This document shows positions 3,453 to 36,891 of a stretch of 36,983 bases of DNA, piece after piece (the first letter of the stretch is position 1; each line of letters begins with the position of its first letter). The stretch is from Parcubacteria group bacterium M6-OD1-1 (GTDB lineage: Bacteria; Patescibacteriota; Minisyncoccia; GWC2-36-17; M10-OD1-4), in NCBI GenBank assembly GCA_003056085.1, contig LSNK01000004.1:92326-129308 (forward strand). Reading direction: 5' to 3'. A model generated the notes under the pieces. That model made no database searches, was not told where the DNA came from, and was given only the letters and a program-made list of their open reading frames with translations. The position numbers were made by a program, and so were the translations under genes.

Positions 3453-3479
3453 ATATTTGGAAGCAAGGCTTCCAAATAT
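3453..3479. repeat. REP-like palindrome, copy 1 (upstream of transposase)
   Basis: ATATTTGGAAGC-AAG-GCTTCCAAATAT, perfect 12-bp stem with 3-nt loop. Confidence 0.85.
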
Positions 3480-3491
3480 AAATATAAAAAA

Positions 3492-4166
3492 ATGTCTATA
3501 AGAAAAACACCTTTTATAATAGGTGAATTTTATCATATATATAATCGTGGTGTTGAAAAAAGAGAATTTTTTCTTGATTTAAATGATCAGAAAAGGTTTT
3601 TTCAAAGCATGCATGAATTTAATACATTAGAGCCGATAGGAAGTATTTATGAAAAACAATTCATTGATAAAAAATTTGGAAGCAAGGCTTCCAAATCTGA
3701 AAAATTAGTAAATTTTGTTGCTTACTGTCTCAATTCAAATCATTATCATTTTATTTTAGAGCAAACAGCTGATAAGGGGATTGAAAAATTTATGCAGAGA
3801 TTAGGTACAGGTTATGCAAAGTACTTTAATAAAAAATATAAAAGAAGCGGAGTTCTATTTCAAGGAAAATTTAAAGCTGTTCATGTTAGTTCAAATAATT
3901 ACCTTCTTCATTTAAGCGCTTATGTAAACTTAAATAATTTGGTTCACCAACTTGAAAGCAAGGCTTCCAAGTTGGTGAAAAGCAAGACAAGTTGGGAAGA
4001 GTATATAGAAGACAATTCTGTAGGTTTTTGTAAGAGAAGTATTATATTAGAACAATTCAAAAATAAAAGAGAATATAAGAAGTTTGCAGAAGAGTCTCTG
4101 CGAGGAATTCTAGAAAAAAGATACGAATTGGATGATTTTGAGGATTTCTTATTAGAGTTAGAATAA
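3492..4166 (+). CDS. REP-associated tyrosine transposase (RAYT, Y1/HUH family)
   Basis: 'GEFYHIYNRGVEKREFF', HUH motif 'NSNHYHFIL', 'FMQRLGTGYAKYFNKKYKRSGVLFQGKFKAVHV', Tyr helix 'NNYLLHLSAYVNLN'. Confidence 0.9.
   Translation: MSIRKTPFIIGEFYHIYNRGVEKREFFLDLNDQKRFFQSMHEFNTLEPIGSIYEKQFIDKKFGSKASKSEKLVNFVAYCLNSNHYHFILEQTADKGIEKFMQRLGTGYAKYFNKKYKRSGVLFQGKFKAVHVSSNNYLLHLSAYVNLNNLVHQLESKASKLVKSKTSWEEYIEDNSVGFCKRSIILEQFKNKREYKKFAEESLRGILEKRYELDDFEDFLLELE
3674..3696. repeat. REP-like palindrome, copy 2 (inside transposase CDS)
   Basis: ATTTGGAAGCAAGGCTTCCAAAT, identical core to copies 1 and 4; translated as 'KFGSKASKS'. Confidence 0.85.
3943..3979. repeat. REP-like palindrome, copy 3 (inside transposase CDS, extended stem)
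   Basis: TTCACCAACTTGAAAGC-AAG-GCTTCCAAGTTGGTGAA, 17-bp stem with one A/C mismatch; translated as 'VHQLESKASKLVK'. Confidence 0.8.
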
Positions 4167-4180
4167 GATAATATTATTTT

Positions 4181-4203
4181 ATTTGGAAGCAAGGCTTCCA
4201 AAT
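4181..4203. repeat. REP-like palindrome, copy 4 (downstream of transposase)
   Basis: ATTTGGAAGC-AAG-GCTTCCAAAT, 14 nt after the transposase stop codon. Confidence 0.85.
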
Positions 4204-4276
4204 TTTTGGAATTTTGCGTTTTTTAGTTTTTGTTGCTATACTTTTTTCAGTAAGCAGTAAAAAAACAGTTGAATTT

Positions 4277-8276: not shown

Positions 8277-8582
8277 ATGTTTGATGCAAAATTTATAGAA
8301 GAAAATTTACCAAAAATATTGGGTATTCATAGTATCCCGGAAGATAAAAAACAAAAAGTTATTGAAGCGATGCAAAAACATATACAAACTCAGCTTGCAT
8401 CAAAGATAATGGGTCAGTTGAATATGAGAGATAAAATGAAGCTTATGCCTCTTATGATGAAAAGAAATCCGGAAGAGATTATGAAATTTATGGTTGAGAA
8501 AGTTCCGAATTTTCAGGAAATTGTTCAAAAAGAAGTCATGGATTTTAAGCCTCAGGCGCTCAAAATAATCAATGAATCTTAA
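8277..8582 (+). CDS. Hypothetical protein (101 aa)
   Basis: Complete ORF in tight array with 8609 ORF. Confidence 0.65.
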   Translation: MFDAKFIEENLPKILGIHSIPEDKKQKVIEAMQKHIQTQLASKIMGQLNMRDKMKLMPLMMKRNPEEIMKFMVEKVPNFQEIVQKEVMDFKPQALKIINES

Positions 8583-8608
8583 TTAAAATAAAACTTCAAA
8601 TTATAAAT

Positions 8609-8821
8609 ATGAAAGAAAAAGAATTATCAGAGCAAGAAATAGCAAAAGAACAAGCTAATCTTCAGGAGCTTGTTGATGTTGCTTTTAATCAAGGAATAGC
8701 AAGCGCTATAAAAACCGCCCAAAAAATGAATGATCCTTATATTTTAGATGCTTTTCATGATCTTTTAGTTGACAAATTGTATGATGAGCTTGTTAAAAGA
8801 CATAGGTTAGAAGAGTTGTAA
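8609..8821 (+). CDS. Hypothetical protein (70 aa)
   Basis: Short ORF with soluble helical composition in a co-directional cluster. Confidence 0.6.
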   Translation: MKEKELSEQEIAKEQANLQELVDVAFNQGIASAIKTAQKMNDPYILDAFHDLLVDKLYDELVKRHRLEEL

Positions 8822-8863
8822 TTTGCTGATAATTGATTTAAATTATCAGTCACAAATCAATAT

Positions 8864-11347
8864 ATGCCATCAGTAGCCTCAGGATATTTATCAATATTTT
8901 TTTTAATTTTAATAATAGCAGCAGTTTCTGTTGCTCTTTGGTATGTTCGGAAATTTCAGAAAAAAGGAGAAATAACCCATTCTTTAAATATGGTTTTGCT
9001 TTTGGTCTCCGTTCCTCTGCATAAGGAAAAAGAAACGCAAATAAAAGAAGATTCAAACAGACTTATAGGTATTTGTGAACAATTTTTTTCAAGCCTAACT
9101 CAAGCAAAAGGAGGCGGTTGGGTTTCTAATGCATTTTCAGGTTCTTCTGCCATTACTTTTGAGATGGCGGTTCATGTTGTGGGCGAAGATGTTCATTTTT
9201 ATATGTCTGCTCCAAGAAAGTTTGCCGATACCGCAGAAAAACAAATTACGGCTGTAATCCCGGGAGCCAGAGTTGAAATAATTGAGGACTACAATATTTT
9301 CAATCCAAAAGGAGTAACAAGAGCTTCTTCTTTTAAATTTTCAAGAAGTCTTTTTTTGCCTATAAAAACATATAAAGATATGGATTCTGATCCATTGAAT
9401 TTGATTGTAAATTCAATGTCTAATTTTCAATTTGAAGATGAAGGGGCTGCAATCCAAATTTTGATTAGACCAAACAAAACCCTGCAAAAAACGGGAAGAA
9501 AAATAATAATGGAGATGAAAAAAGGAAAGTCATTTTCGGAGGCTCATTCAAATGCCGCAAAAGGAGCGTTGGGTGATATTATAGAGATTTTTCAAGGGAA
9601 AAAGAAAAAAGTTGAAAAAGAAGAATATGAAGAGCAGAAAGTTTTGGATGAAGAAACCATAAAAGCGCTCGAGTCTAAATTTTCAAAAGTTGGGTTTGAT
9701 GTTAATGTTCGGCTCGTTGCTTCCGCCTACACAGAGACAAGAGCAAATGCGATTTTGTCCGACCTTGAGAGTTCTTTTTTACAGTTTGAAAATTCAGGCA
9801 TCAACGGACTTAAGCCATACAGGCTTTCAGGTAAGCGTTTGCAAAGATTAATATATAATTTTTCTTTTAGAAATTTCAATTTCAAAAACAAGATGTATTT
9901 TAATTCAGAGGAGCTTGCAAGTATTTTTCATTTTCCAACGCCTTATCTTGAAACCAAAAAAATAAAAGTTCTTAAAGCAAAGACCGCTCCGGCGCCTTCA
10001 GGGATGCCCAAGGAAGGGATTTTAATAGGTGAAAATATTTACAGAGGAGTAAAAACCCCCGCCAGATTGATGGATGAAGACAGGCTGAGGCATCTTTACA
10101 TAGTGGGGCAAACAGGAACAGGTAAGTCGGTTTCTTTAAAAAATATGATACAGCAAGACATAGAAGCGGGACATGGCGTTTGTTTTATGGATCCTCACGG
10201 AGAGGATTTGGAAGATATCTTGTCTCGTATACCAAAAGAAAGAATGGAGGATGTTGTTGTTTTTGACCCCTCTGACATGCAAAGACCAATAGGTATAAAT
10301 ATGCTTGAATATGACCCCAAAAAACCGGAGCAAAAATCATTTATTATAAATGAAATGATAAGTATTTTTGACAAACTGTATGACTTAAAAAATACAGGCG
10401 GGCCTATGTTTGAGCATTATTTAAGAAATGCACTTTTGCTTATAATGTCAGACCCGGAGTCCGGCTCTACACTACTTGAAGTTCCAAGAGTTTTTTCAGA
10501 CCCAGAATTCAGAAAAATGAAACTTAAAAAAACAGACGATATCTTAGTTAAAAACTTTTGGATTTTAGAAGCGGAAAAAGCCGGAGGAGAAGCGGCTTTA
10601 GCGAATATAACTCCATACATAACAAGTAAATTTAATATATTTTTAGCAAATGAATTTGTAAGACCGATAATTGCTCAGCAAAAAAGTACTATAAACTTCA
10701 GAGAAATAATGGACAATAAAAAAATATTGCTTGTTAATTTGTCCAAAGGGAAAATAGGCGATATAAACAGCAATCTTTTAGGTCTTATAATAGTGGGCAA
10801 ACTCACGATGGCGGCATTAGGAAGGGGAGATGTCCCAAAGGAACAGCGACATCCATTTTATTTTTATATAGATGAATTTCAAAATTTTGCGACAGATTCA
10901 ATATCGGTTATTTTATCAGAGGCCCGCAAGTACAAACTTTCACTAACGATGGCGCACCAGTTTATAGCCCAGTTGCCTGAAAATATTCGAGATGCTGTTT
11001 TTGGAAATGTTGGTTCCATTATGTCGTTTCGGGTCGGAGTAGACGATGCTGAATTTTTAGAAAAACAATTTTCTCCCGAGTTTGATCAAAACGATCTGAT
11101 GAATATAGATAATCTAAACGCATATGTTAAACTACTGATAAATAATCAAGCAACAAAACCCTTTAATATTAAAGTTAGTTTTCCAGAGGAGGGTGATACA
11201 AACTTAGCCCAAAAAATAAAAGAGCTTTCAAGAATAAAATATGGTAAGTCAAAACAGGATGTAGATCTTGAAATAGAAGAGAGGTTTAAGAAAAAACCAA
11301 CAGAAGAAGAAAGACCGCAGATTAATGAAACAAAAAACACAGAATAA
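8864..11347 (+). CDS. TraG/TraD/VirB4-like ATPase with N-terminal TM segment
   Basis: Walker A 'LYIVGQTGTGKSVSLKNMI', 'GVCFMDPHGEDLEDIL', 'FYFYIDEFQNFATDSISVILSEARKYKLSLTMAHQFIAQL', typical of type IV secretion coupling ATPase families. Confidence 0.85.
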   Translation: MPSVASGYLSIFFLILIIAAVSVALWYVRKFQKKGEITHSLNMVLLLVSVPLHKEKETQIKEDSNRLIGICEQFFSSLTQAKGGGWVSNAFSGSSAITFEMAVHVVGEDVHFYMSAPRKFADTAEKQITAVIPGARVEIIEDYNIFNPKGVTRASSFKFSRSLFLPIKTYKDMDSDPLNLIVNSMSNFQFEDEGAAIQILIRPNKTLQKTGRKIIMEMKKGKSFSEAHSNAAKGALGDIIEIFQGKKKKVEKEEYEEQKVLDEETIKALESKFSKVGFDVNVRLVASAYTETRANAILSDLESSFLQFENSGINGLKPYRLSGKRLQRLIYNFSFRNFNFKNKMYFNSEELASIFHFPTPYLETKKIKVLKAKTAPAPSGMPKEGILIGENIYRGVKTPARLMDEDRLRHLYIVGQTGTGKSVSLKNMIQQDIEAGHGVCFMDPHGEDLEDILSRIPKERMEDVVVFDPSDMQRPIGINMLEYDPKKPEQKSFIINEMISIFDKLYDLKNTGGPMFEHYLRNALLLIMSDPESGSTLLEVPRVFSDPEFRKMKLKKTDDILVKNFWILEAEKAGGEAALANITPYITSKFNIFLANEFVRPIIAQQKSTINFREIMDNKKILLVNLSKGKIGDINSNLLGLIIVGKLTMAALGRGDVPKEQRHPFYFYIDEFQNFATDSISVILSEARKYKLSLTMAHQFIAQLPENIRDAVFGNVGSIMSFRVGVDDAEFLEKQFSPEFDQNDLMNIDNLNAYVKLLINNQATKPFNIKVSFPEEGDTNLAQKIKELSRIKYGKSKQDVDLEIEERFKKKPTEEERPQINETKNTE

Positions 11348-11348
11348 G

Positions 11349-11450
11349 AAAAGTAACAAGTAACAATAACCAAGCAACAAATAAATCGCAATAAACAATA
11401 ACCAAAACAACGTCTATTTGCAGTTTATTTCTTATATCTTGTGACTTCGT
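11349..11450. repeat. Dispersed intergenic repeat, copy 2
   Basis: 'aacaagtaacaataaccaagcaacaaa' (27 nt) matches copy 3 exactly, followed by more divergent shared sequence. Confidence 0.65.
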
Positions 11451-12711: not shown

Positions 12712-12718
12712 CAATGTA

Positions 12719-12754
12719 AAATAAAACAACTTCGTAATGGAAGTTGTTTTATTT
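12719..12754 (+). terminator. Intrinsic terminator after tRNA-Gln
   Basis: AATAAAACAACTTC-GTAATG-GAAGTTGTTTTATT, ~15-bp stem with T-rich 3' arm. Confidence 0.75.
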
Positions 12755-12853
12755 ATCTCTATTTAAGTATTATACAGTACTATGCGTCTGGTATTTAGTA
12801 GAGCATTGGGATGTGTTATAATGGTATTTATAAGATAATTTTAATTAAAATAT

Positions 12854-13816
12854 ATGAGATTAAATAGTTTTGAATCAATGGGGATAGAGCCCTTAGGAGA
12901 AGGGCAGGAGAAAAGAACTTTCATAAATCCAGAGGACGAAAAAAGAGTTATTTCTGAGAAAAAAGAAGATGCAGAAAAAGATACACCATGTCAATTAAAG
13001 GGTAGATATTATCTTACAAAAATAGCCCACTCACTTCTTCCTGATAACATACCTGATATATATCAGGCAGGAGAATCTGTTAAGGGGAAACAGACCGTTG
13101 ATGTAGAGCGTATTTCCCACACATCCGAACATTCACTTTTACAAAAAAAGCGTTTATTGGGTGAAGATGAGGAATCAGTAAAAGAACAAATTATAGACGA
13201 TATGGGTAAGAAAATGGGAGAGTTGGATTTAGAACTTGAACGCATCGGACTTAGCTTTAATATTGATGAAAATGTTGGTAATTATACAAAAGATGAGGAA
13301 GGAAACGTACATTATCTTGAGACATTTAAACCTTGGCAGGTAAATCCCACAAACCCAAAGGAGCTCGAAATATTATTTGATGAAGAAGAATTAAGAGAGG
13401 CTATTGGTAGTATTTCTAATCAGGTGATAAAAGAAAGAAGCACAAAGTATTTGGATAGACTCCTTGTTCTATTGGAGGAAGACAAACAAGAATTACAGGC
13501 AAAGCAAGAATATCTCAAAGCAAACTTAATAGAAAGTGGTCCACATATTGAAGAACTCGAAGTTATGTTTGTTCCATTTATGAAAGAGGAATTCCTATTA
13601 AATTTAAATGTTATTCAGACGGAAGAAGAAGCTCGAAATAGTGAAGAAAGAAGCTCTGCCAACGAAGCTCTCGTACATATCTTCAAAAAATTACAGTTTT
13701 TATTAGAGGAAACAAATATTACTGATGAGAAATATAATGAACTGCAGGAAAAACGGCAGACCCTTTCTATGGCTACAGGAACAATAAATCGTGGAATAGT
13801 TGACCATAGTAGATAG
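12854..13816 (+). CDS. Hypothetical protein (320 aa)
   Basis: Long ORF; Gly-rich 'PLGEGQEKRTFINPEDEKRVI' and 'GNVHYLETFKPW' vaguely recall kinase-like fold elements (weak). Confidence 0.75.
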   Translation: MRLNSFESMGIEPLGEGQEKRTFINPEDEKRVISEKKEDAEKDTPCQLKGRYYLTKIAHSLLPDNIPDIYQAGESVKGKQTVDVERISHTSEHSLLQKKRLLGEDEESVKEQIIDDMGKKMGELDLELERIGLSFNIDENVGNYTKDEEGNVHYLETFKPWQVNPTNPKELEILFDEEELREAIGSISNQVIKERSTKYLDRLLVLLEEDKQELQAKQEYLKANLIESGPHIEELEVMFVPFMKEEFLLNLNVIQTEEEARNSEERSSANEALVHIFKKLQFLLEETNITDEKYNELQEKRQTLSMATGTINRGIVDHSR

Positions 13817-14017
13817 CTTCTATTTTAATTTTTTGTAAATTAAATTAAATAAAATCAACTACTATTTATGATGTGCGCAAAAAACATCGTTTTGGTAAAC
13901 TGGAATAATTAAAATAGCTTACTGGACTTGTACGACGATAGTTTTAGCTCGAAGTAATCAGCCTTATTTGAGCACAGTGTTTGTGCACAAGGAGCGTTAG
14001 TTTAATGAAATAAAAAT

Positions 14018-14515
14018 ATGAAAAAGATTGATATAAAATATTTAATAATAATTATTTTAATTAGTGTGATTTCTTATTTTTTTTACGTTTTCGAAACTAA
14101 TGAGTTAGTAGATATTGCATCAGGAAACCATGAGATGATAATCAAGAAGCCCGTTATTAATAAAATAACAGGACAAGGGAATTATGCATTGGATTGTTCT
14201 ACTAATAAGTATACGAATATAACTATTGGAGGTTCGTTTATCCCCGAATCTTCAATAAAAATATCTGATGGAAATGAAAAACAGGTGCTTTATATTGAGG
14301 GAGTAAAGGCAAAATACTTTGGTGCAGAATATGATGTTATTCAAGATACTGAAGCCTACTTAGTAATTATACGTTTTTATTCTGGTAGTGGGCTAACAGA
14401 AATTATTTCTATAAATAAAGAACTGGGTATTGGGTTTGATACAAAAACAAAATTATTAAGTTTGAGCGGAAGTCCCACAAGTGATACTTACTTAACATCT
14501 TGTTACCAACTTTAA
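14018..14515 (+). CDS. Hypothetical protein with N-terminal TM anchor
   Basis: 165-aa ORF, 'KYLIIIILISVISYFFYVF' TM segment then a soluble domain. Confidence 0.65.
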   Translation: MKKIDIKYLIIIILISVISYFFYVFETNELVDIASGNHEMIIKKPVINKITGQGNYALDCSTNKYTNITIGGSFIPESSIKISDGNEKQVLYIEGVKAKYFGAEYDVIQDTEAYLVIIRFYSGSGLTEIISINKELGIGFDTKTKLLSLSGSPTSDTYLTSCYQL

Positions 14516-14608
14516 TTTTAACAGAATTATTCAGAGAACATCAAACTTTATGAATAAAATATCAGGAAAAGTAGGCTAGTTTTTGTATGATAAAAAAGAG
14601 GAAAGATA

Positions 14609-14648
14609 AATCTGGCATTTGATGACGGACGTCATCAAATGCCAGATT
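14609..14648. repeat. Long perfect palindrome, family member A
   Basis: AATCTGGCATTTGATGAC-GGAC-GTCATCAAATGCCAGATT, 18-bp perfect stem, followed by T-rich sequence. Confidence 0.9.
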
Positions 14649-14676
14649 GTTTTATTTGGTAATAAGTTGGAAGGCA

Positions 14677-14714
14677 TTGCATGTATAGCTACATTTTGTT
14701 ATAATGTAGCTATA
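14677..14714 (+). promoter_or_regulatory. Promoter embedded in a palindromic operator for the HicA-like/antitoxin operon
   Basis: TATAGCTACATT-TTGTTAT-AATGTAGCTATA (14684-14714) overlapping extended -10 TGTTATAAT; -35-like TTGCAT at 14677 with 17-nt spacer. Confidence 0.7.
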
Positions 14715-14734
14715 ATTATTTAAAAATATAAAAC

Positions 14735-14974
14735 ATGACAAAAATAACAAAAAAGGTCGAAAAGTTTTTTAAAAGTCCAGCGTCTATAAAATATTTGGAT
14801 TTAGAAAGTATTTTAGTTTATTTTGGATTTAAAAAGATTAATGCGAAAGGAAGCCATGTTAAATTTAAGCATCCACAGCTACAAAATGATTTAATAATTC
14901 CAGTACATAAAAATGAGTGCAAAGATTTTTATAAAAAAGAATCAAAAAAACAAATCAAAAAAATAAAAATATAG
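14735..14974 (+). CDS. HicA-like mRNA interferase toxin
   Basis: 'LVYFGFKKINAKGSHVKFKHPQLQNDLIIPVHKNE' contains the HicA Gly-Ser-His signature and the dsRBD-like pattern. Confidence 0.75.
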   Translation: MTKITKKVEKFFKSPASIKYLDLESILVYFGFKKINAKGSHVKFKHPQLQNDLIIPVHKNECKDFYKKESKKQIKKIKI

Positions 14975-14989
14975 AATAAGGTAAAAAAT

Positions 14990-15313
14990 ATGAAAAATAT
15001 GAAAAAAGTAGTCGCAAGCATAACAATAAATAATAAAAAATATAATTATAGTCTTGAGGAAAAAAAACGAGGCTTGGTTTTTATTGAGTGCAAAAGCGCA
15101 AATATTGCGCAGGATTTTTTGACGGAAGACGTAGCTAATCTTCTTATGGATCTTCCAAATTTAATTATTGCTGAAAAGGAACACGCTAAAAAACAGTCTG
15201 AGGTAATAAGATTTAGAATTTCACCCACAGATAAAAGTAAGATAGAAAGAGAAGCAGTTAAGGAGGGGTACGATTCTCTTTCAGAATATATGCGTCACCG
15301 TGTTTTAAGTTAA
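14990..15313 (+). CDS. Probable cognate antitoxin (C-terminal ribbon-helix-helix-like)
   Basis: 15 nt after the HicA-like ORF; C-terminus 'EVIRFRISPTDKSKIEREAVKEGYDSLSEYMRHRVLS' resembles RHH DNA-binding domains. Confidence 0.65.
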   Translation: MKNMKKVVASITINNKKYNYSLEEKKRGLVFIECKSANIAQDFLTEDVANLLMDLPNLIIAEKEHAKKQSEVIRFRISPTDKSKIEREAVKEGYDSLSEYMRHRVLS

Positions 15314-15501
15314 TAGATGGTATTTTACCAATAATAACGCTTTGGACCACGGCGGAAGCGGAAGACGCGCATAGTGGCACAGTATTTTAAGGTTTTCTTA
15401 TTTATCAATGGAATATAGGAATCTTTAGTTGTGTTTTAAGAAAGATTGGTGTATAAATAATTGTAAGAAAAATCTTTGACGCACTATAAAAGGAGTATAA
15501 A

Positions 15502-15879
15502 ATGATTTATAAAGTTTTATTGAGAAAAGAAAAAACTTATTGGTGGGACGAGGATTCTTTTGGTAGTTGCATATTTAATGCGAAAAATGATGAACAAGCA
15601 AGAGCCTTTGTTGCAACAATTGTCCAACGAATGAATAGAAAGTATTGGAGAATTGGCGAACAACGAAATGTGTTTATCCAGTCAATTAGCCGCATTAAAG
15701 AAAGTGGGCTTGGTAATGTGTTGGAGCCGGTAAGTCTTTGGAATTGCATTGAGCCGTTAAAGGGATTTCGTAATATTAGGTTAGCTCTTGAAGCGTTCTA
15801 TCCAAAAAACAATGGCAAGCGTATATGGTCTATGATGCACATGTTTAGTAATTATGAGCCAATTCGTTTGAAGTCTTAA
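15502..15879 (+). CDS. Hypothetical protein (125 aa)
   Basis: Strong Shine-Dalgarno 'aaaggag' upstream of ATG; followed by a terminator. Confidence 0.65.
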   Translation: MIYKVLLRKEKTYWWDEDSFGSCIFNAKNDEQARAFVATIVQRMNRKYWRIGEQRNVFIQSISRIKESGLGNVLEPVSLWNCIEPLKGFRNIRLALEAFYPKNNGKRIWSMMHMFSNYEPIRLKS

Positions 15880-15901
15880 AAAAATATTGGAAGCCTTTAT
15901 A

Positions 15902-15930
15902 AAGGTCGTCATAATGGCGGCCTTCTTTTT
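15902..15930 (+). terminator. Intrinsic terminator
   Basis: AAGGTCGTC-ATAAT-GGCGGCCTT (9-bp stem with two G-U pairs) then TCTTTTT. Confidence 0.7.
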
Positions 15931-16062
15931 ATATATCAACTACAGAAGAAACAGCTTTTATATCCGTCGGATATTATAGAACCCTGTACATTTAATAATT
16001 TTTATGATAATTTTTTGTCTGTATTTAGTTGTTGGTATTTGAATAAAAACTGGAGGTGTACG

Positions 16063-16305
16063 ATGAAAATTCTTAATATTATAGGTTGTTGTATTAAAGC
16101 AATGATGATCGCGGTGGCGTGCTCACTCATGCTCGGATTAACAGTAGTTATATTTTACCGACATATTCCAACTTTTGGTATGGATCCGGTAGAAAGAGCA
16201 ATTGTTATTCAAAACGATGGTTTAAATGCAGGTTTAATGTATATAGGGCTCTTTCTTGTATCTTTAGTTTTTATTCTAGTAAGAGAATATATAAAATATA
16301 AATAA
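16063..16305 (+). CDS. Small membrane protein (~80 aa, two TM segments; start reassigned from the 16015 ORF)
   Basis: ATG at 16063 preceded by Shine-Dalgarno 'tggaggt'; hydrophobic segments 'MMIAVACSLMLGLTVVIFY' and 'LMYIGLFLVSLVFILV'. Confidence 0.6.
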   Translation: MKILNIIGCCIKAMMIAVACSLMLGLTVVIFYRHIPTFGMDPVERAIVIQNDGLNAGLMYIGLFLVSLVFILVREYIKYK

Positions 16306-16340
16306 TTTTTCTGAATAAATCAGAAAAAAGTAATTTAAAT

Positions 16341-16370
16341 AAATCGCCGTCTCAAATGACGGTGATTTTT
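16341..16370 (+). terminator. Intrinsic terminator
   Basis: AAATCGCCGTC-TCAAAT-GACGGTGATTT then T run. Confidence 0.7.
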
Positions 16371-16490
16371 CATATTTATAGGGAAGCTTTGATTGTTATG
16401 TTTTTTTATATATAATGTAAATGTGTAATATTTAATAAGTGCAAAAATTATTTTTACTTAAAAATTATCTAATACATTAGATAAAATATT

Positions 16491-17174
16491 ATGGGAATAA
16501 AATTCATACAAGTTAATTGTAAAGAAGAAATTAACACACCAAAATGGACCAGCCCGGATTATAGACAGGCTAAAGCTGTTTTAAAATACAAACCGGACAT
16601 TATTATCTTTGAAAAGGCTAATAATGGCAAAAATCCCAATACTATTTATAATAAATATAGTTACAAAAATAAACCTGTAAAATTAGTACGAAAACATCAG
16701 GAATGGTTAAAGGAAAAATCAAAAGAATATGGCGATGCGGCATCAGGTATCCCGATGTGGGATAATATAATAGAGTTATGGAGTGAAGGTCACAATGTTT
16801 TATTGTATAATGTAGATGGTTCTAATGAATTACGTCAGGAATTTTTTGAAGTTTGGAAATATATGTATCCTTGTGCTTTAAAAAATTGGCTTTGGTGGGT
16901 AAGAATATATTTAAGAGAAAAATATATGGCGAGAGATATTAAATGGATTCTTAAGAATAATAAAGGTAAAAAAAATCTTATTGTAGCCATCTTTCTTCAA
17001 AATTTTCATTGGGAGCATGTAGAATTTCTTTTAAAAAATCCTACCAAAAAACAGATTTGGGATTATTATTTTAAAAATTTTAAAGGCATAACGAAGGCTA
17101 ATATTACTGAAAAAATAAAGAAAGAAAATAAAGTTTTTTATAAGTATTGGAAAAATATTTCTGATTTCAATTAA
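16491..17174 (+). CDS. Hypothetical protein (227 aa)
   Basis: Complete ORF followed immediately by a terminator hairpin; no family recognised. Confidence 0.65.
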   Translation: MGIKFIQVNCKEEINTPKWTSPDYRQAKAVLKYKPDIIIFEKANNGKNPNTIYNKYSYKNKPVKLVRKHQEWLKEKSKEYGDAASGIPMWDNIIELWSEGHNVLLYNVDGSNELRQEFFEVWKYMYPCALKNWLWWVRIYLREKYMARDIKWILKNNKGKKNLIVAIFLQNFHWEHVEFLLKNPTKKQIWDYYFKNFKGITKANITEKIKKENKVFYKYWKNISDFN

Positions 17175-17175
17175 T

Positions 17176-17211
17176 AACAAAAAGACCATTTTATAAAACG
17201 GTCTTTTTGTT
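17176..17211 (+). terminator. Intrinsic terminator
   Basis: AACAAAAAGACC-ATTTTATAAAAC-GGTCTTTTTGTT, 12-bp stem. Confidence 0.75.
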
Positions 17212-17249
17212 GAGTCGGATGATTGTTATTTATATGATATAATTTTCAC

Positions 17250-17519
17250 ATGACAAACAATTCTCCCAACATCGTATATATACTAAAGTGCAGTGACAGT
17301 ACGCTTTATACTGGGTCTACTATCGATTTGGAAAAACGGGTTCAAGAGCACAACAAGTCAAAAAACGGAGCAAAATACACAAGAGCGCGCAGGCCCGTGG
17401 TGCTTGTGTATCAGGAGAAATGCAAAACATTGGCTGTTGCTCGAGCGCGCGAAGCAGAGATTAAAAATATGATTAGGAAAGAAAAGTTATTGCTTATAAA
17501 AAATTATCAGAAAATATAG
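17250..17519 (+). CDS. GIY-YIG domain protein (UPF0213/YhbQ-like endonuclease)
   Basis: 'NIVYILKCSDSTLYTGSTIDLEKRVQEHNKSKNGAKYTRARRPVVLVYQE', GIY-YIG variant 'VYI...LYTGST'. Confidence 0.88.
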   Translation: MTNNSPNIVYILKCSDSTLYTGSTIDLEKRVQEHNKSKNGAKYTRARRPVVLVYQEKCKTLAVARAREAEIKNMIRKEKLLLIKNYQKI

Positions 17520-17529
17520 CTTCACATAC

Positions 17530-17585
17530 AAAAACCAACCGTAGCATATGGTGACGACCGTCACCATATGCTACGGTTGGTTTTT
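17530..17585. repeat. Long perfect palindrome, family member B1
   Basis: 26-bp perfect stem, tetraloop GACC: AAAAACCAACCGTAGCATATGGTGAC-GACC-GTCACCATATGCTACGGTTGGTTTTT (first A paired at 17530). Confidence 0.92.
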
Positions 17586-17656
17586 ATTTTTTAAGGTGTT
17601 ATGATTTTTAAAGTTTGTGATATGTTGTAAAAATTTAAAATTTGCTAAATATGTGA

Positions 17657-17684
17657 ATGTAGTGTAAAACTGATGTAGTGTAAA
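17657..17684 (+). repeat. Direct repeat ATGTAGTGTAAA x2 in leader of 17704 ORF
   Basis: ATGTAGTGTAAA at 17657-17668 and 17673-17684 (16-nt period), immediately upstream of the SD 'cggagg'. Confidence 0.7.
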
Positions 17685-17703
17685 TCTCAACGGAGGACAG
17701 AAA

Positions 17704-18792
17704 ATGCAAACACTAAGAACTGAGGAAAAAATTTCTCAAGCTCTTGTTCCTTTAAATAAAAAACTTGCTTTAATTGAGGCAGGACAGAATATACTTTTAA
17801 AAGTAGGAAATACATATTCGCTTATGAAGTACGAAGGTCATAATGCAGAGATTGAAAAACATAATATTCATCGTTTTAGTCGTAATCTTAAAATAATGAC
17901 TTCCAATTGGCATTTTGCCGATACCAAAAAAAAGCAGCAAAAGCTTATTAAAAAACAACATCGCGAATGGAAGCGGTACAAGGGCAATATTTACGGCACA
18001 CACCGTTTAGATTTTACTTTTGACGAAGAGTTTGGAATTTTTCTTCCATCTTCTGATGGCCGTGATATGTTTCTTACGCTTGCAAGAGAAACTTTTGATG
18101 GTGATATTGTGCCAAGAAAGGATGTAATTGATATAATCAGTGATGATGATTTGATTGTAACAAAGTTGCGCGAGATTACTCGTCCACAATATTTCAGTAC
18201 AGTAGTTGCACCATTTTTGGAGAACAGGTGTACGGAATTTAAAATTCCTAAACGAAGTAAATTATTGATCTTTGAAGCCAATAAATTTACTTTATTAAAT
18301 CGTTTTGAAAGAGCGACACGCGACATTAAACACGGTGCGTTTGTGTATGTCGGGAGTAAAGAGGAAGTATATCTTCTTGGGCTTGCGCGAGGCAATAACG
18401 GCAGACCATACATGCAAGGAACATACTCAACAAGTACTAAGCCCATGTTTTATTTTTCTAATAATTATTTGGAATTTATATCCCGGCATGATGCGCAAAA
18501 GCCAAAATTTAAATGGGGCGGCGATTGTAATGTAGCTGTGTATCGGGCTTATGATATTCCAGGATTTCGCAGGCATCCGTTTATTTTTCCACAAATGGGA
18601 AGGAGGCAAAATTGCAAAAATACTATTTTTACAGGTAAACCACAGCTAATAACGGGTAATGTGAATGAGGCTATCGCGCATTTTACTACTACTGATTTTG
18701 CGGAGTTTGCAGATATTGTTAGCTTGTATGCAAAGCAAATTGACAGTATTCATCCTTCGTCTGATGAGCCAAATGGAGAGTTTTACTATTAA
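17704..18792 (+). CDS. Hypothetical protein (362 aa)
   Basis: Long ORF with strong SD 'cggagga'; bracketed by palindromes B1 and B2; no family recognised. Confidence 0.75.
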   Translation: MQTLRTEEKISQALVPLNKKLALIEAGQNILLKVGNTYSLMKYEGHNAEIEKHNIHRFSRNLKIMTSNWHFADTKKKQQKLIKKQHREWKRYKGNIYGTHRLDFTFDEEFGIFLPSSDGRDMFLTLARETFDGDIVPRKDVIDIISDDDLIVTKLREITRPQYFSTVVAPFLENRCTEFKIPKRSKLLIFEANKFTLLNRFERATRDIKHGAFVYVGSKEEVYLLGLARGNNGRPYMQGTYSTSTKPMFYFSNNYLEFISRHDAQKPKFKWGGDCNVAVYRAYDIPGFRRHPFIFPQMGRRQNCKNTIFTGKPQLITGNVNEAIAHFTTTDFAEFADIVSLYAKQIDSIHPSSDEPNGEFYY

Positions 18793-18817
18793 AGTGGTAA
18801 TTTTTTATATATTTTGG

Positions 18818-18847
18818 AAACGACAGCACAAAGTGCTGTCGTTTTTT
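18818..18847 (+). terminator. Intrinsic terminator of the 17704 ORF
   Basis: AAACGACAGCAC-AAA-GTGCTGTCGTTT then TTTC, 12-bp stem. Confidence 0.85.
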
Positions 18848-18880
18848 CTTTTATAGGGCGGTTTGCATAAAACTAAAAAC

Positions 18881-18932
18881 AAACCAACCGTAGCATATGG
18901 TGACGACCGTCACCATATGCTACGGTTGGTTT
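18881..18932. repeat. Long perfect palindrome, family member B2
   Basis: 24-bp perfect stem, tetraloop GACC; identical to B1 in the same orientation from AAACCAACCG through GGTTTTTATTT. Confidence 0.92.
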
Positions 18933-19014
18933 TTATTTGAGAGTTTTTTGATTTTGAGTTAGAATGGATATATAAATTTCAAAAAATTTAAAAAACTAAG
19001 TAATTTTATTAATA

Positions 19015-34589: not shown

Positions 34590-34717
34590 TATTTTAAATA
34601 TAAAGCCCCAAATATAAAATTATAAAAAATTTACTCATATTGACTTATTCCTAAAAATAGTTTATTATAGCAATAAACTAAGGTAGTTTGTCCTTTCACA
34701 ATAAGAGGTATAAGTTA

Positions 34718-36637
34718 ATGAATAATATTTTATTGAAAGTACTTGTTCTCGCAGGTTTGTTGTTTTCACTGACAGCTTGTGGAGGAGGTGGCAGCGGAGG
34801 ATCAAGTTCTGCCGCTAATAATCCCGATCCTATAGTTGATAATTCACCAGTCAGTGATTCTGACCCTGTGGTTGACAATCCAGGATCCGGAGCTGACGAT
34901 CCGTCAGATGGAAACCCAGGTCCTGCAGTTAACAACCCGCCCACTAACGCTTCGGCAAACATCACAACCAACGAAGACTCTTCTGGTTCAACGGTTCCTC
35001 AGGTGAGTGATGTTGACGACACGATTCATTCGTTTATCATCGAAACTCAACCGCAAAATGGAACGGCTCAAGTTGCCGGTAATACTCTTGTTTATACGCC
35101 AAATCCAAACTGGAACGGTTCTGATAGTTTCACTTTCAGAGCTGTCGATGGTGGAGGTTTGTTCGTTGTGGGCACGGCTCAAGTTACAGTTAGTCCGGTA
35201 AACGACACTCCGACAACTCAAGATATTTCCTCACAGGATGTAGAGCCGGAAGTTGCTTTTACATCAACTCCTCAGGTTTCAGATCCGGATCAAGGCGATG
35301 ATTACACTATTAGTGTAGCTATGGCTCCGCAAAATGGAACGGTGGAAGTAAGCAGTGACGGAAAGTCTTTGCTCTATACTTCAAATGCAAATTTTGAAGG
35401 CAAAGATGAAATTACTTTTTTGGTTACCGATTCAGGAAATTTAACGGCAACGGCAATTGCATATTTTAATGTTTTGCCAAAAGTCATTTCTCCTGTAATG
35501 AGCCAAATAACGACTGAAGCGGCTTGGTATCTTTCTCCAAGAGTGGAAGTTTTGGGTAACAAAGTCGCTCTTTTGTGGGGTAAAAAAACAGCAAGATATC
35601 AAGCTGATGTTTATGCGTCGTTTTCGTTTGATGATGGTCTCAATTTTGGACCAGTTGAATTTGCCGGAGGATCATTTGGATGGCAATTCCGTACTTTTAT
35701 TGATGATATGAGTAATTTGTATTGGAATTTCAAACAAAGACCCGCTATTTTTAGAAGTCTCGGGTTTACCGGCGGAAATTGGCAGTATGTTTCTGTAAGA
35801 ACATGGACTGATGCCGCCTGGGTGAATGGCAGCAATATATATGCGGCTACCGGCTGGGAAAATAATACAGGCATTCTTCCAAAATTTGCCATTAGTAATG
35901 ATGAGGGTGTTACGTGGGCAATTTATCGATTTGGAGATAATGCTGGTTGTGTACGTTTTTCTATAAGTCAATCGCCGGTAGATGGCTCTATTCATATGCT
36001 GTATAATTGCCAGACAAAAGGCTTTTATTACGTAAAATACAGCCAAGGAGTTGTAAGTCAGCCAATAAAAATAGCAGAGGCTTACACAGACGGAACACAA
36101 TCTGTTCATGCGGTGAGGGATAAAATATATTTTATAAACTCCTGTATGTATTTTCCTCGAAAGGAAAGCAATGGCAGTATACATGTGTTGAAGTCGTGTG
36201 ATGACGGATTGTCATGGGAAGACATCTTTGTATCAGATATGTTTAGGGCCAATCTAACTTTATTTAAAGAGGATGGCACAATACTTGTTTCCTATGTTCC
36301 GCAAAAAGTCTGGATGGATTCAAGTACAATGACCATTTATGCTTTTGAAGAGTCTGAAGCCAGAAACGGCTACTTGGTTTTTAAGGCATATAGGCATGAT
36401 GCTTTAAACGGCACATGGAATCAAAAAGGCGAAAGCATAACAGATCTTTTTGATTCCCTTAACATAGATATAAGGGAAGATTATGGTGTGGAGCAGAGAT
36501 ATGTTGAAATAGGCAGTGCTTTACGTTTTGCAGATCTTGATATGGAAATGTCAGAAACTGATCTCCATTTTTTATATTCTTCTGGTGGAGATACTGGAAA
36601 TATATTTTACTTCAAAGTACCTCTTAAGTCTAAGTAA
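34718..36637 (+). CDS. Secreted lipoprotein with cadherin-like/tandem-95 and BNR (sialidase-like) repeats (start reassigned from 34688)
   Basis: ATG at 34718 with SD 'aagaggt'; lipobox 'LFSLTACGGGGSGGSSS'; two 'PQNGTAQV..LVYTPNPNWNGSDSFTF' modules; Asp-box-like 'SNDEGVTW', 'SCDDGLSW', 'SFDDGLNF'. Confidence 0.85.
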   Translation: MNNILLKVLVLAGLLFSLTACGGGGSGGSSSAANNPDPIVDNSPVSDSDPVVDNPGSGADDPSDGNPGPAVNNPPTNASANITTNEDSSGSTVPQVSDVDDTIHSFIIETQPQNGTAQVAGNTLVYTPNPNWNGSDSFTFRAVDGGGLFVVGTAQVTVSPVNDTPTTQDISSQDVEPEVAFTSTPQVSDPDQGDDYTISVAMAPQNGTVEVSSDGKSLLYTSNANFEGKDEITFLVTDSGNLTATAIAYFNVLPKVISPVMSQITTEAAWYLSPRVEVLGNKVALLWGKKTARYQADVYASFSFDDGLNFGPVEFAGGSFGWQFRTFIDDMSNLYWNFKQRPAIFRSLGFTGGNWQYVSVRTWTDAAWVNGSNIYAATGWENNTGILPKFAISNDEGVTWAIYRFGDNAGCVRFSISQSPVDGSIHMLYNCQTKGFYYVKYSQGVVSQPIKIAEAYTDGTQSVHAVRDKIYFINSCMYFPRKESNGSIHVLKSCDDGLSWEDIFVSDMFRANLTLFKEDGTILVSYVPQKVWMDSSTMTIYAFEESEARNGYLVFKAYRHDALNGTWNQKGESITDLFDSLNIDIREDYGVEQRYVEIGSALRFADLDMEMSETDLHFLYSSGGDTGNIFYFKVPLKSK

Positions 36638-36789: not shown

Positions 36790-36891
36790 GTAAGCAACAA
36801 GTAACAATAACCAAGCAACAAACAAATTCCAAGAAACAATGACCAATAACCAAAACGACGACGTGTTTGTAACTTGTAACTTGTATCTTGG
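36790..36891. repeat. Dispersed intergenic repeat, copy 3
   Basis: 'caacaagtaacaataaccaagcaacaaacaaattccaagaaacaatgaccaataaccaaaacgacgacgtgtttgtaacttgtaacttgtatcttgg', similar to copies 1 and 2. Confidence 0.65.

Follow-up and report, generated by a model that had tools for sequence, protein, structure and literature searches.

The two identical palindromes (B1 and B2) that bracket an orphan gene in Parcubacteria group bacterium M6-OD1-1 probably both belong to a REP-like hairpin family that is specific to this genome and of the type dispersed by RAYTs, the REP-type tyrosine transposases. This reading is favored by the presence of ten copies in the genome and of none in the 386 other genomes sampled from the class, and by RAYT genes in the same genome that have hairpin families of like build. 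The window, by which we mean the whole stretch of 36,983 nt that was analysed, comprises positions 92,326-129,308 of the forward strand of contig LSNK01000004.1 (G000:C2:92326-129308) in assembly GCA_003056085.1, which holds 766 kb in six contigs (GTDB lineage Bacteria; Patescibacteriota; Minisyncoccia; GWC2-36-17; M10-OD1-4). The genome was probed by searches and on selected stretches, and was compared with a class sample of 387 genomes, itself included, and with two closer relatives, G001 from the same family and G002 from the same genus.

Two identical palindromes flank an orphan gene

B1 and B2 share 100% identity over 58 nt and lie 1349 nt apart from start to start, in agreement with the first-pass annotation, which had reported more than 55 identical nucleotides and a spacing of about 1.35 kb. 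Its end for B2, 18932, had to be moved six bases further to 18938. In B1, the core GTAGCATATGGTGACG-AC-CGTCACCATATGCTAC is framed by the outer arms AACCAACC/GGTTGGTT, and a T-run is also present. Each palindrome forms a hairpin in which a GACC loop closes a near-perfect stem of 24-26 bp. When folded as RNA, B1 gave -45.1 kcal/mol (z -12.0) and B2 -43.1 kcal/mol (z -11.8), and none of 200 shuffles folded as well. A search of the window for the 17-mer half-site with up to three mismatches found four occurrences against 0.02 expected, all of them inside B1 and B2. The direct orientation claimed earlier for the pair can be read from two features only, an asymmetric centre of 2 nt and the flank TTTTTATTT, since the remainder is palindromic. 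Both copies take the form of an intrinsic terminator, with a G+C-rich hairpin and a T-run at the 3' end of a gene, and several other copies in the genome do not; B1 begins 13 nt past the stop codon of the GIY-YIG gene.

Between the palindromes lies a single unrecognised gene that has a strong SD and a terminator of its own as well as a leader motif that occurs twice, just as the first-pass annotation had described it. Its 362-aa product gave nothing usable in Pfam, NCBIfam, PADLOC, PHROGs or PDB sequences, and no homologues were found in the 387 class genomes, GTDB representatives, phages or plasmids. Two candidate matches were rejected, one in G036 (E = 0.002) that covers 50 residues interrupted by stop codons, at chance level for 387 genomes, and one to guanylate kinase of 14 bits, far under the cut-off. 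Single-sequence structure prediction gave a mean pLDDT of 31.

Table 1 Features of the window and related loci elsewhere (window positions unless a contig, C, or stretch, L, is named)
Feature	Position	Strand	Remarks
REP-type tyrosine transposase (Y1_Tnp)	3492-4166	+	224 aa; architectural comparison for B
Hairpin family of the window RAYT	3453-3479, about 4178-4204 (flanks); 3672-3698, 3943-3979 (in frame)		
Variable region	12713-19014	.	tRNA-Gln to invertase gene
Third window copy of B, diverged	14609-14648	.	AATCTGGCATTTGATGACG-GA-CGTCATCAAATGCCAGATT; arm changes compensated
HicA-like toxin (79 aa) and 107-aa partner	14735-15313	+	partner: weak ribbon-helix-helix (NikA-like) match
GIY-YIG nuclease-domain protein	17250-17519	+	89 aa, directly upstream of B1
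Palindrome B1	17532-17589	.	58-nt repeat unit with T-run
ORF leader	17655-17690	+	TGTAGTGTAAA twice (sequence)
Orphan ORF	17704-18792	+	362 aa, ATG start, GGAGGAC ribosome-binding site
Terminator-like hairpin of the 362-aa gene	18818-18844	+	AAACGACAGCACAAAGTGCTGTCGTTTTTT, separate from B2
Palindrome B2	18881-18938	.	same as B1; borders variable region and conserved invertase gene
B copies, contigs C1 and C2	C1:22712, C2:10402, C2:106934, C2:109853, C2:111204		the last three are window 14609, B1 and B2
B copies, contigs C4 and C6	C4:49, C4:1469, C6:23099, C6:53155, C6:123873		
RAYT genes with own hairpin families	C2 (window), C6:80492, C6:85657, C6:171152		
RAYT stretches with in-frame hairpins	window 3453-4204; L068 888-1700; L069 884-1655; L124 15429-16238		

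The unit sits at the end of a variable region, in which the interval from tRNA-Gln to the invertase gene takes up 6.3 kb. In G001 this interval measures about 560 bp and holds a single, unrelated gene of 162 aa. The region contains the HicA-like toxin and its partner, which likely form a toxin-antitoxin pair, together with the GIY-YIG protein and several unknowns, and it carries three of the ten copies of the palindrome. Among the window genes compared, the GIY-YIG gene has the most atypical codon usage, and it and the 362-aa ORF are the least typical. Codon usage and the variable interval together support acquisition of the region, though not of the bracketed unit alone. An Rfam search of the window returned tRNA only.

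The palindrome belongs to a dispersed, genome-specific family

A whole-genome search for the pattern GTAGCATATGGTGACG-NN-CGTCACCATATGCTAC and its variants defined the ten copies of the B family, one of which, the diverged third copy in the window, the first-pass annotation had overlooked. A hairpin at C6:8528 (GGGGACGGTCGTCCCC) and another that follows murB (CTGACGACTGTCAG) are possible distant relatives of the family. Outside the genome, the exact 25-mer of the palindrome core was absent from GTDB contigs, and the family is missing from relatives that keep the neighbouring genes.

The copies examined are intergenic and are found at promoters as well as at 3' ends; read from the sequence, their contexts include positions behind a gene, between divergent rpe and ferric-reductase-like genes, and before a tRNA-like sequence. 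Six of the ten bracket no gene. The nearest relative of B1 is B2 and vice versa, outer arms included, and the copy closest to B1 outside the pair, C6:23099 (94% over 65 nt), stands alone between two divergent genes. It is the hairpin that demonstrably disperses.

Changes in one arm are mostly balanced in the other. Within the fixed 16-nt core arms, the variants CATATGG, CAAATGG and CAGATGG each occur with their complement, so that T/A, A/T and G/C alternate at one position, and at 14609-14648 G-C pairs have become A-T pairs across the arms. The outer arms vary from copy to copy and yet stay mostly complementary, with AACCAACC, ACCACC, CCCAT, TTAA or AATCTG paired in most copies. In most copies GTAG heads the core on both strands and is base-paired with CTAC inside the stem; C2:10402 has lost it from one strand, and the copy at 14609 has CTGG in its place.

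Two other roles for the repeat were considered and rejected. A link to a homing-type nuclease through the GIY-YIG gene was set aside, as no recognisable gene of this type lies beside the other B copies examined. The reading as an uptake sequence for natural transformation was rejected because the half-sites are almost confined to palindromes and the copies are few.

RAYT genes in the genome carry hairpin families of the same build

A Y1_Tnp search of the genome gave five matches, of which four are genes of 224-234 aa and the fifth, at C1:34201, is likely a fragment. The RAYT in the window matches PF01797 (E 3e-8) and NCBIfam REP_Tyr_transpos (E 2e-5, under its cut-off). Each of the four genes is accompanied by its own hairpin family (GGAAGC..GCTTCC; TCGAGGTT.AACCTCGA; TAGGGGTT.AACCCCTA; ATAGGTG.CACCTAT), located on the flanks and partly inside the reading frame, with more copies elsewhere on the stretches read. 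These families and B are alike in build, with a fixed core and copy-specific complementary outer arms. B itself is absent from all five Y1_Tnp loci, four of which carry the other hairpin families. In G001, a RAYT 62% identical to that at C6:171152 occupies the same place among orthologous neighbours; it is flanked on either side by hairpins of a different core and has two more within its reading frame.

The in-frame hairpins were found at the same two protein positions in three RAYT genes. At the second position, three genes keep the outer arms ACCAACTT/AAGTTGGT (codons for HQL and KLV), slightly eroded in one of them, and the core between the arms differs.

Dispersed hairpins, cassette, terminator or operator

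We propose that the hairpin of about 58 nt would be a self-copying unit, moved by a RAYT, and that with its T-run it is shaped like an intrinsic terminator of the preceding gene. The 362-aa gene would then be one of several foreign-looking genes in the variable region behind the tRNA gene, and the sister hairpins may have come to flank it by local copying, whether through a hairpin hop, gene conversion or recombination. Several observations run against a REP-like origin, namely that no RAYT adjoins any B copy, that GTAG is paired and not an unpaired tag, and that ten copies are a low number for REPs.

The main rival, put forward in the first-pass annotation, is a mobile single-gene cassette, in which the gene together with one palindrome integrates and excises by site-specific or homologous recombination at the palindromes. 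Part of that proposal stood up, in that the gene is an orphan with atypical codons in a variable interval, the two palindromes are in direct orientation and are each other's closest relatives, and a second pair brackets another gene. At C4:49 and C4:1469, direct repeats of 128 nt (97% identical) surround an AAA/DUF4143 ATPase gene, which also matches the PADLOC candidate family PDC-S01, and two close pairs among ten copies have a probability of about 0.01 under random placement. Furthermore, a 117-aa PQ-loop/SemiSWEET-like gene lies alone between two near-identical 27-nt palindromes (C6:28487-28981, stretch positions 8487-8981) that belong to the hairpin family of the C6:85657 RAYT. This last pair is, however, in opposite orientation by its centre base, and the C4 repeats, which by our own reading include the end of a LamG-type frame (its 3' part), are explained equally well by segmental duplication. 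The B copies with cargo carry different genes, the 362-aa ORF and the ATPase. The first-pass annotation had held that palindromes at many unrelated loci without cassette behaviour would speak against its proposal, and this is largely what we found, since six other loci have the palindrome but no gene bracketed by it. Nor was an empty site with one palindrome found: G001 is without the whole region and any B, and at this place G002 showed no invertase match and a weak, probably paralogous dnaX match, which leaves G001 as the one comparable relative. A scan of proteins at C4 and in the vicinity of B1/B2 showed no recombinase. Homologous recombination might in principle make use of the 58 identical bases, and gene and hairpin may move as a unit. 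Nevertheless, given the six solitary copies, the failure to find an empty site in the relatives or a recombinase at the loci examined, and the possible duplication at C4, we favor dispersed REP-like hairpins with local copying and regard the cassette as rather unlikely. A misassembly at the 58-nt repeat is also conceivable.

Two further readings fit the data less well. If B1 and B2 were purely a pair of strong intrinsic terminators, immobile and kept or copied for termination, the position of B1 just behind the GIY-YIG gene, its T-run and its strong hairpin would be expected; but a separate terminator already follows the 362-aa gene ahead of B2, C6:23099 lies upstream of both genes of a divergent pair and so at a place that needs no terminator, C1:22712, C6:53155 and C6:123873 have no T-run immediately behind the stem on the strand of the upstream gene, and a 34-nt core common to ten loci is unlike ordinary terminators. 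We consider this reading improbable. An operator or chromosome-organisation site, bound by a dimeric DNA-binding protein and kept for that function, would agree with the near-perfect symmetry, the conserved core and the location of copies at promoters and 3' ends, and is nonetheless very improbable: the compensated core changes agree at least equally well with a folded strand, the family is absent from relatives in which the neighbouring genes are conserved, and three of the ten copies lie in the variable region.

As for the C4 locus itself (C4 1-1594), we observed that the repeat holds both the B palindrome and a GGAAGC hairpin, that the contig starts inside the first repeat copy, and that the second is preceded by a broken LamG-like C-terminus.

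Hairpins at equivalent sites in relatives

Some of the sites that hold B here have hairpins of other, genome-specific families in the relatives. Both G001 and G002 carry such a hairpin behind murJ and before rpe, and G002 carries one of another family behind the 3D-domain gene, whereas the orthologous sites behind murB in G001 and before L31 in G001 and G002 are without a hairpin. The cores seen at these gene ends are GGAGATTGAGTCTCC in G002 and CTCACGATCGTGAG in G001. Counted over gene ends, three of four B ends have a hairpin in G002 versus 1 of 36 other ends (p = 0.0016), and two of five versus 8 of 174 in G001 (p 0.026), in a test with small numbers, two sites common to both comparisons and stretches picked for B sites. 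An explicit, stricter gene model gave p = 0.0035 for G002 and 0.17, not significant, for G001. When the comparison was confined to gaps of at least 100 nt, the values were 0.07 (G002) and 0.15 (G001); the shared-site statistic may therefore partly reflect long intergenic gaps. The sharing of sites between families speaks for the REP-like reading but is suggestive only.

Taken further, RAYT-type hairpin pairs might mobilise single non-transposase genes, driven in trans by REP transposases, with families that turn over at sites that persist. The genes concerned would be the orphan, the AAA/DUF4143 ATPase with its match to a defence-candidate family, and the PQ-loop protein; we consider this extension a long shot.

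Relation to known systems

Most of what is known of REP/RAYT systems comes from larger genomes, and the literature searched on this point held no description of them in Patescibacteria-type genomes. B resembles the REPs that occur with RAYT/TnpA_REP genes in REPtrons (PMC3733652, PMC8266576) in being a short, dispersed, mostly intergenic and genome-specific palindrome with GTAG, the tetranucleotide tag of REPs (PMC8266576), at its foot in most copies, in a genome whose RAYTs are bracketed by comparable hairpins. It differs in having no adjacent RAYT, a paired GTAG, only ten copies, and outer arms that are variable yet complementary. CGTC-tagged REPs, which lack a dedicated adjacent transposase (PMC3733652), are likewise dispersed palindromes with no such gene beside them, but their stems are 8-9 bp as compared with 17-26 bp in B, and CGTC lies in the inner stem of B and is not an unpaired end tag. 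TIRtrons, that is, RAYT genes flanked by TIRs (PMC3733652), share with the B1/B2 unit a bracketed gene and, in part, self-complementary repeats; the gene between B1 and B2, however, is not a transposase.

The unit also recalls integron gene cassettes, with a single gene, a folded repeat on each side and one orientation, but no integrase or attC core was seen at the B loci. Integron attC sites have boxes, whereas the B repeats are near-perfect palindromes without them.

This 0.77-Mb genome, in which several hairpin families have a RAYT of their own and one has none, offers a compact place to ask about the roles of RAYTs and the carriage of genes by hairpin pairs. If the persistence of sites with species-specific cores is confirmed, the turnover of cores could be observed directly.

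Further observations in the window

The window also contains a 55-nt A-rich direct repeat (AAGTAACAAGTAACAATAACCAAG...) in three copies (727-781, 11351-11405 and 36792-36846), which are 76-89% alike and 10 and 25 kb apart. In addition, a gene at 34688-36637 encodes a 649-aa protein with bacterial Ig/cadherin-like domains, and is high in G+C for the window and less typical in codon usage.
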